A stretch of 64,000 nucleotides of DNA from Kiloniella spongiae (lineage in GTDB: Bacteria > Pseudomonadota > Alphaproteobacteria > Kiloniellales > Kiloniellaceae). The notes under the pieces are model-generated. The model worked only from the letters and a program-made list of their open reading frames with translations, did not search any database and was not told the DNA's origin. Each line of letters opens with the position of its first letter. Within the stretch, counting starts at the first letter, position 1. Position numbers and translations under genes: made by a program. Shown here piece by piece: positions 26,507 to 27,246 of the stretch. Location of the stretch: NCBI RefSeq assembly GCF_001026905.1, contig NZ_LAQL01000002.1:372001-436000 (forward strand), given 5' to 3'.

Positions 26507-27153
26507 TGCCTGATTTCTCGAGAGAACAAAACTTCGACCAAGAACTCGGCATAAACAACGCTGTAATTGCCGGTGTTGACGAAGTCGGTCGTGGCCCGTG
26601 GGCTGGACCAGTGGTAGCGGGAGCAGCATGGCTGGATCGCGAGAAAATACCATCGGCTCTCATCTCAAAGCTTGATGATTCAAAAAAACTCTCGATAAAA
26701 AAACGTGAAGATATAAACGATGAGCTTTATGATTTGCATCAACAGGGCGTTATAAATCTCGCCTTGGGCGAAGCCAGCTGTGAAGAGATCGACGAACTGA
26801 ATATTCTTCAGGCATCCATGCTTGCTATGCAACGAGCGATCTCAAACCTGGCCGTAACACCACAGGCCATTTTGGTTGATGGCAACAAAATTCCAAATTT
26901 TCCCTGCCCTGCACAAGCTGTCGTCAAAGGCGATGGTATTAGCCTGTCCATTGCTGCCGCATCTGTCATCGCAAAGGTGAATCGGGATCATCAGATGTTT
27001 GAATTATCGATTCAGTACCCAGGTTACGGTTGGGAAAAGAATCAGGGGTACGGCACTGCTCAACATCGAGCCGCACTACTAGATCTTGGGGTTACCCCTG
27101 CACACCGCCGCACATTTCGCCCAATTAGAGAGCGACTCGAGCTAAACGACTGA
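26506..27153 (+). CDS. rnhB: Ribonuclease HII
   Basis: 215 residues. Cleaves the RNA strand of RNA-DNA hybrids, including single ribonucleotides in DNA. The metal-binding acidic residues lie in GVDEVGRGPWAGPVVAGA (about 22-39), KLDDSKKLSIKKRE, and the later ILVDGNKIPNFPCPAQAVVKGDGISLSIAAASVIAKVNRD. Start overlaps the antiporter stop. The 3' end carries the first of the GANTC sites that run into the ccrM leader. Confidence 0.97.
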   Translation: MPDFSREQNFDQELGINNAVIAGVDEVGRGPWAGPVVAGAAWLDREKIPSALISKLDDSKKLSIKKREDINDELYDLHQQGVINLALGEASCEEIDELNILQASMLAMQRAISNLAVTPQAILVDGNKIPNFPCPAQAVVKGDGISLSIAAASVIAKVNRDHQMFELSIQYPGYGWEKNQGYGTAQHRAALLDLGVTPAHRRTFRPIRERLELND

Positions 27154-27246
27154 CTCCAATGACTCTTTACTTGACTCTTCTAACAAAAAATACTTGACCG
27201 CGACTCCACGGTGACTCAATATAGGGGACTCGAGTCAAGAGGAGTC
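27134..27246. promoter_or_regulatory. Cluster of nine GANTC methylation sites in the ccrM leader
   Basis: GACTC at 27134, 27152, 27161, 27173, 27202, 27213 and 27227, and GAGTC at 27232 and 27242: nine sites in 113 bases, about twenty times the random expectation of one per 256. GANTC is the CcrM target. The first site is inside the rnhB end, the last overlaps the AGAGGAG ribosome site of ccrM. In Caulobacter, methylation of two GANTC sites in the ccrM promoter region feeds back on its expression; a much denser version of that control is inferred here. Confidence 0.85.
27194..27222 (+). promoter_or_regulatory. Candidate ccrM promoter
   Basis: TTGACC (27194-27199), 17 bases, then CAATAT (27217-27222) resembles a sigma-70-type promoter. 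Two GACTC sites fall in the spacer and one at the expected transcription start. No clear CtrA box (TTAA-N7-TTAA) is seen nearby. Confidence 0.4.

Follow-up and report, generated by a model that had tools for sequence, protein, structure and literature searches.

GANTC sites lie in the leader of the Caulobacter ccrM gene, and a CtrA-activated class of ccrM promoters is found in Caulobacter, Brucella, and Agrobacterium. Beyond a few model species, little is known of how ccrM is timed. In the parts of the literature cited here, the Caulobacter gene is described as activated by CtrA (PMC2877005, PMC3667746) and as being, "most probably," under the control of GANTC methylation state (PMC3973325). 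The same body of excerpts presents GcrA as a protein that binds methylated GANTC (PMC3667746), targets sigma2, and aids or speeds formation of the open complex (PMC7403470). On fully methylated ctrAP1, it covers more than 40 nt, with a footprint that extends from -35 to past the start; mutation of GAnTC cuts the activity of four GcrA promoters (mipZ, podJ, flaY, and pleC) by 60–80%, but not that of a fifth target (PMC3667746). The GANTC positions given for Caulobacter are -29 or -28 in ctrA P1 and -24 in podJ P2 (excerpt of PMC4287350).

Two comparative studies bear on the question. In the portion available of Adhikari et al. 2021, 13 species (one per order) are compared, and ccrM is put forward as a likely core GcrA target for many of them, a status lost in Caulobacterales and Parvularculales; an extended motif (YGAKTCK) was counted there from -200 to +100 of the start codon, with site location disregarded (PMC7987155). 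Brilli et al. 2010, in the portion available, took GANTC counts from the upstream regions of cell-cycle genes across the class, and these allowed no conclusion on methylation control (PMC2877005). That ccrM is a GcrA target has thus already been proposed (PMC7987155); the base-exact positional design and the Kiloniella leader described below were not found in open-licence PMC papers or the excerpts of them, a scope outside which most subscription papers fall.

A dense GANTC cluster upstream of ccrM

The leader studied here lies in a 64-kb stretch of Kiloniella spongiae DNA, the whole of which was analysed (the window). An initial annotation had placed nine GANTC sites (seven GACTC, two GAGTC) at 27134–27246, i.e. 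in the 113 bases between the 3′ end of an ORF that we take, as it did, to be rnhB and the ccrM ribosome site. It put the chance expectation at about 0.4 and located two of the sites in a candidate promoter and one over the Shine-Dalgarno. A recount returned the same nine sites with the same split; the expectation, recomputed, lies between 0.2 and 0.5; and site 9 does fall over AGGAG, with sites 5 and 6 in the predicted promoter (Table 1). In detail, 0.21 sites per 113 bp are expected at the real density of contig C12 (1577 GANTC, or 1.89 per kb) and 0.47 under a first-order Markov model. For one fixed segment of this length, the Poisson probability of nine or more sites is 2e-12 at the C12 density and 2e-9 under the Markov model.

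The window as a whole holds 118 GANTC, and its runner-up 113-bp stretch has three. Elsewhere in 927 kb of the organism's own genome, the maximum is four; the scan took in contigs C12 (835 kb) and C11 (92 kb), both whole, or about 21% of 4.47 Mb, and it uncovered no similar cluster at an unrelated locus. These counts and the Poisson probabilities reject chance or base composition as the source of the cluster. Genome-wide richness in GANTC is also rejected: C12 has 1577 sites vs. 3361–3586 in eight first-order Markov sequences.

As a side observation, the GANTC frequency over the 835 kb of C12 is thus about half of the first-order Markov prediction. The C12 stretches with four GANTC per 113 bp lie at 142719, 242062, 292647, 323718, 340809, and 488639, and some of these six may be control regions.

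The cluster is also unusual in the variable base of its sites. N is C or G in all nine, vs. 366 of 1577 GANTC (23%) on C12, where the remaining 1211 have A or T; the probability of this by chance is 2e-6. Successive sites are separated by steps of 18, 9, 12, 29, 11, 14, 5, and 10. Judged by eye, this spacing is irregular in phase, so no ordered array is evident and an ordered helical array was rejected.

Table 1. Features in and around the ccrM leader (coordinates are those of the window).
Feature	Position	Strand	Basis and remarks
ORF, presumably rnhB	26506–27153	+	ORF list; contains site 1; site 2 lies across its stop codon
GANTC site 1, GACTC	27134–27138		Within the rnhB ORF; sole cluster site fitting YGAKTCK; invariant in 9/9 Kiloniella
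GANTC site 2, GACTC	27152–27156		Over the rnhB stop; genus alignment
GANTC site 3, GACTC	27161–27165		Upstream cluster; genus alignment
GANTC site 4, GACTC	27173–27177		Upstream cluster; genus alignment
A-tract	27185–27190	+	Directly 5′ of the -35; possibly UP-element-like; adjoins the leader's most variable stretch
Predicted -35 element TTGACC	27194–27199	+	TTGAC invariant in 9/9 Kiloniella; anchors the conserved core
GANTC site 5, GACTC	27202–27206		Spacer site, about -27 to -23
GANTC site 6, GACTC	27213–27217		Merges with the -10 element; spans -16 to -12
Predicted -10 element CAATAT	27217–27222	+	Has -11A and -7T; weak vs. TATAAT
GANTC sites 7 (GACTC at 27227) and 8 (GAGTC at 27232), perfect palindrome GACTCGAGTC	27227–27236		Spans the predicted start
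Shine-Dalgarno AGGAG	27240–27244	+	Sequence
GANTC site 9, GAGTC	27242–27246		Overlaps the Shine-Dalgarno
ccrM, GANTC adenine methyltransferase, 356 aa, GTG start	27254–28324	+	ORF list; phmmer

The predicted promoter is of the sigma70 type, TTGACC-N17-CAATAT, with one CcrM site fused to its -10 element and a second in its spacer. The -10 element would put the transcription start at about 27229, within a predicted range of 27228–27232. A stringent scan of 27050–27330 for consensus promoters called none; this miss is in keeping with a weak -10, though it is also a plain negative. On the minus strand, the same scan reported a single terminator-like stem, at 27212–27197 (chance 0.2). No Rfam family was matched in 26900–27500. 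Downstream, an ORF that by its look alone we presume to be MutY-like (28759–29835, minus strand) points at ccrM.

Residues 5–354 of the ORF downstream of the cluster align by phmmer to residues 16–365 of 6PBD, "Modification methylase CcrMI," with E 3.6e-161. This match is full-length and includes the C-terminal domain that marks the CcrM family; the initial annotation had likewise assigned the gene to the methyltransferase for GANTC.

Conservation within Kiloniella

All nine sites are invariant, and at the same distances, in nine Kiloniella genomes (this one included) whose ccrM genes are 88–100% identical. In the last 120 alignment columns, all 45 GANTC columns are invariant vs. 53 of the 75 others (Fisher P 1.2e-5); restriction to the intergenic part gives 38 of 38 vs. 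43 of 62 (P 4e-5). The N position of the sites is likewise invariant within the genus. The most variable stretch of the leader in the genus alignment lies between site 4 and the -35.

The size of the cluster sets the genus apart. Among 218 leaders from Kiloniella and its relatives, the densest 113 nt hold nine sites solely in the nine Kiloniella genomes; two others have eight, three have seven, and three sites is the most frequent count. The family's 14 other leaders each carry between three and six GANTC in 150 nt, for the most part near the -35 and -10. Compared with these, Kiloniella has extra sites further upstream, the start-spanning palindrome, and the Shine-Dalgarno site.

A positioned promoter core in relatives

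Two of the nine sites in the cluster occupy promoter positions that are common to distant relatives, a feature absent from the initial annotation. The shared core has the form TTGAC-N14-GANTC-A-NNN-T: its -10 element incorporates a CcrM site, and in most cases a second, less strictly placed site lies in the spacer. Three sets of leaders were used. Of 98 relatives, 88 had a CcrM match with E ≤ 0.001; leaders were taken from 80, eight partial or remote matches being left out. The named set comprised the best 80 of at least 593 stretches, mostly from Rhodobacteraceae, of which two (L177 and L201, < 100 nt) were dropped to leave 78. For the held-out set, the search rule was fixed before the genomes were drawn: of 114 genomes drawn from the class, 82 matched CcrM at E ≤ 1e-100, and 62 of these were new, one per family. 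Two duplicates (L131 and L183, of G007 and G096) are inside the count for the 78 named leaders and were removed from the pooled counts of 218 leaders and 139 core leaders, which are based on 260 nt per leader.

TTGAC-N14-GANTC occurs in 59 of the 80 relatives' leaders (offset 13: 0; offset 15: 2), in 59 of the 78 named leaders drawn from the best 80 stretches (offsets 13 and 15: 0; a narrower pattern of the core gave 54), and in 23 of the 62 held-out leaders (offset 13: 0; offset 15: 2). It was not found in the other 39 held-out families. Mononucleotide shuffling gave 0.065 such cases per 158 leaders, and shuffling of the held-out leaders gave 0.07 per 62. In the order to which Kiloniella belongs, the core is present in 52 of 57 genomes and in seven of eight families; outside it, seven of 23 families of the same class have it. 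Given its absence from 39 of 62 held-out and 16 of 23 out-of-order families, the core is dispensable for the control of ccrM in the class.

The bases downstream of the fused site are informative. A at -11 and T at -7 are the -10 bases that sigma70 reads most strictly. Neither was part of the search rule (GA-TC itself was required by it), and both are found in 139 of 139 core leaders, including 23 of 23 held out; in the latter, the bases between them vary. A 17-nt spacer puts the A at -11 and the T at -7, so that GANTC spans -16 to -12 and the -10 hexamer begins with its final C. From its sequence, the core is a predicted promoter, and one rigid candidate design for ccrM is common to the order and patchy across the class. 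Conservation in relatives, which the initial annotation had proposed as a check, has two levels: it is complete for the sites in the genus, and it holds for the positioned core in the order.

A second GANTC lies inside N14 in 125 of the 139 core leaders; in the first two sets it mostly follows TTGAC by 3 nt, and in the held-out set by 1–5 nt. N at the -10 site is C in 110 leaders, A in 28, and T in one; at the spacer site, it is A in 55, G in 38, C in 24, and T in eight. The N thus varies, and the G, A, T, and C, which the search rule requires, are constant, as expected if selection is on the CcrM motif. Overall, the 62 held-out leaders have 17.2 GANTC per kb in their last 150 nt vs. 2.3 in the 250 nt further up.

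By eye, many Rhodobacterales leaders (within L135–L209) have GATTC, then an A-rich tract, then TTGAC, and some are without the core (e.g. L133, L162, L192, and L194). Phage copies were considered as well and rejected: the 14 relatives on viral contigs are remote (24–52% identity in the best segment), none has the core, and their leaders hold zero or one GANTC in 150 nt (one leader comprises only 101 nt).

Specificity of the core for ccrM

TTGAC-N14-GANTC occurs three times in all over both strands of the 927 kb, and only the ccrM copy has the inner site plus both the A and the T. A sequence-only profile built from 45 cores gave one good match in the organism's own genome, the ccrM leader (E 4.7e-7); the next had E 4.6 (150 of 598 candidates were scored). 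The larger searches scored 54 or 63 candidates per genome under stricter filters, which weak copies may escape, and match positions were compared with those of ccrM by hand. Among the 98 relatives, 61 of 69 matches were upstream of ccrM, and the other eight (E 0.006–0.08) are about what chance would give; since 30 of the 45 training sequences came from these relatives, those match by construction. In the class draw of 114, 14 of the 62 new ccrM families matched just upstream of ccrM (E ≤ 0.1), and seven matches elsewhere in the new genomes (E 0.0076–0.077) are about the chance number at that threshold. The profile is stricter than the regular expression, which finds 23 of the 62.

GcrA and CtrA

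The initial annotation had suggested a GANTC-dependent, GcrA-like regulator. The regulator itself is encoded: PF07750 matches at C11:61655–62275 with E 2.9e-30, and the protein aligns to the solved GcrA chain 7YE1 in both its N- and C-terminal parts (phmmer, E 4.6e-23). The suggestion fares less well at the sites, as the Caulobacter GcrA consensus YGAKTCK is fitted by one of the nine in this leader and by neither core site. In its general layout, the leader resembles a GcrA/sigma70 promoter, with GANTC between the predicted -35 and -10 elements (27202 and 27213); in the extended consensus, it does not. Among the control genomes, the GcrA family model also exceeds its cut-off in an archaeon, Sulfolobus acidocaldarius; a Pfam hit alone is thus no proof of GcrA, and the match to 7YE1 is the better evidence.

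GcrA is over the cut-off in 76 of the 98 genomes searched. By a hand tally, confounded by ancestry and incomplete genomes, the core is present in 56 of 72 leader genomes with GcrA over the cut-off (and missing in the other 16) and in three of eight without; put differently, 56 of 59 core-bearing genomes have GcrA over the cut-off. The three exceptions are G005 (77% complete), G010 (91%), and G061 (weak match). In one relative, a second GcrA-like match (G013:C31:15436–16823) adjoins short CcrM-like matches; this is perhaps a mobile or phage GcrA/methyltransferase pair.

All nine Kiloniella leaders are free of TTAA over the 260 nt before ccrM, which means that they have neither a CtrA box (TTAA-N7-TTAA) nor a half site there. 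The hallmark of a CtrA-activated ccrM promoter is therefore missing in Kiloniella, and a CtrA site in the leader was rejected for the genus. Among relatives, the full box is present in two of 80 leaders, and TTAAC or GTTAA lies within 200 nt in 23 of 80. No exact DnaA boxes were found in the nine Kiloniella leaders.

Discussion

There is good support for the sites at 27134–27246 as a GANTC-dependent control region. The reading in the initial annotation is borne out in part: the graded methylation-sensing switch that it suggested is no more than a possibility, given the irregular spacing. The placement of the enzyme's own target sites in and around the ccrM promoter suggests that the gene senses the marks of its own product. 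How would it do so? We lean towards the view that the leader is an autoregulatory promoter of the GcrA/sigma70 type, which Kiloniella has enlarged, and that it would respond to methylation by sensing the marks of CcrM. Its anatomy and conservation were computed; the reader of the marks, the sign of the response, and its timing are what we infer. The weak -10 element, with C at -12, would need help, and that help would come from GcrA, through its binding to sigma region 2 and to methylated GANTC. The promoter would fire when hemimethylated, i.e. when the fork has passed and the parental strand is marked. As CcrM accumulates, it would fully methylate the spacer, -10, start-site, and Shine-Dalgarno sites; either GcrA or the marks themselves would then cover the start region, ccrM would be damped, and CcrM would appear as a pulse. 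Extra sites may sharpen the shut-off because more marks must be placed. The least certain step is the sign of the feedback: off when fully methylated is, in our estimation, only slightly the better guess. The strongest counterpoints to the scheme are the fit of a single site in nine to YGAKTCK, the core in three of eight genomes without GcrA over the cut-off, and the 39 of 62 held-out families that lack the core.

The second of these counterpoints also speaks for a mechanism in which the marks act on RNA polymerase without GcrA: N6-methyladenine at -15 (top strand) and -13 (bottom strand), beside the first base to melt, would alter sigma contact or melting at the -10, the other sites being secondary. 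The -10 site is fixed to the base (among held-out leaders, offset 14 in 23, 13 in none, and 15 in two), and the spacer site slides over 1–5 nt; the -10 site thus behaves as a promoter part. We nevertheless consider this mechanism unlikely, given that nearly all core genomes (56 of 59) have GcrA over the cut-off and that GcrA is a known reader of the mark (excerpt of PMC3667746). A protein that prefers a TGACTC-like sequence, with methylation incidental, would account for the restriction of N to C or G in all nine sites (23% on C12; chance 2e-6) and for its invariance within the genus; it is improbable in view of relatives that have A or T at both core sites, of a downstream gene that encodes the enzyme for exactly this motif, and of the lack of a second dense cluster in 927 kb.

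A repressor role for CcrM itself, bound to the un- or hemimethylated cluster and blocking promoter and ribosome site until methylation frees it, would suit sites that span the spacer, the -10, the predicted start, and the Shine-Dalgarno. We rate it slightly lower again: a long stay of CcrM on its sites has no support here, and over the 218 leaders the most frequent site count per 113 nt is three. Lastly, the GACTC and GAGTC runs might be kept for RNA pairing that hides the ribosome site in transcripts reading through from rnhB. The 127-nt RNA over the cluster (27134–27260) does fold better than its shuffles (z -2.3; two of 200 as good) because GACUC and GAGUC runs are complementary, but the leader from the predicted start does less well than its shuffles (z 1.7 and 1.1), Rfam has no family for 26900–27500, and relatives in the family without the near-start sites retain the promoter core. 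This idea is very hard to credit.

Beyond the GcrA/sigma70-type scheme that we lean towards, a bolder reading is possible, if doubtful. In ccrM promoters of many Alphaproteobacteria, the element GANTC-A-NNN-T (-16 to -7), with the CcrM target forming the upstream end of the hexamer, may be a methylatable -10, in which the two methyl groups beside the first melted pair would switch opening directly. It would be an old self-sensing epigenetic promoter, distributed over many families, and the nine sites of Kiloniella would provide a sharp shut-off that counts to completion.

With a base-exact design over many families, found only at ccrM where searched, a statistical proposal becomes a testable mechanism. 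Having nine sites and lacking a CtrA box, the Kiloniella leader offers a natural extreme in which to ask whether site number sets the sharpness of the feedback.

Comparison with known systems

The GcrA regulon of Adhikari et al. 2021 likewise has ccrM as a proposed target; the excerpt available mentions neither a fixed position nor Kiloniella. The ccrM promoter of Caulobacter crescentus is alike in the control of ccrM by methylation, there described (in the excerpt cited) as most probable. It differs in being CtrA-activated, whereas the Kiloniella leader has no TTAA in 260 nt and nine GANTC. There is also a likeness to the GcrA-dependent methylated sigma70 promoters (ctrA P1, mipZ, and podJ): GcrA is encoded in Kiloniella, and GANTC lies between -35 and -10, as in ctrA P1 and podJ P2. 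By the positions given in the excerpt on those two promoters, the spacer site of Kiloniella and its relatives is in the same place. To this arrangement, the Kiloniella ccrM promoter adds a -10-fused site at a fixed spacing and a larger number of sites, most of which are not of the YGAKTCK type.
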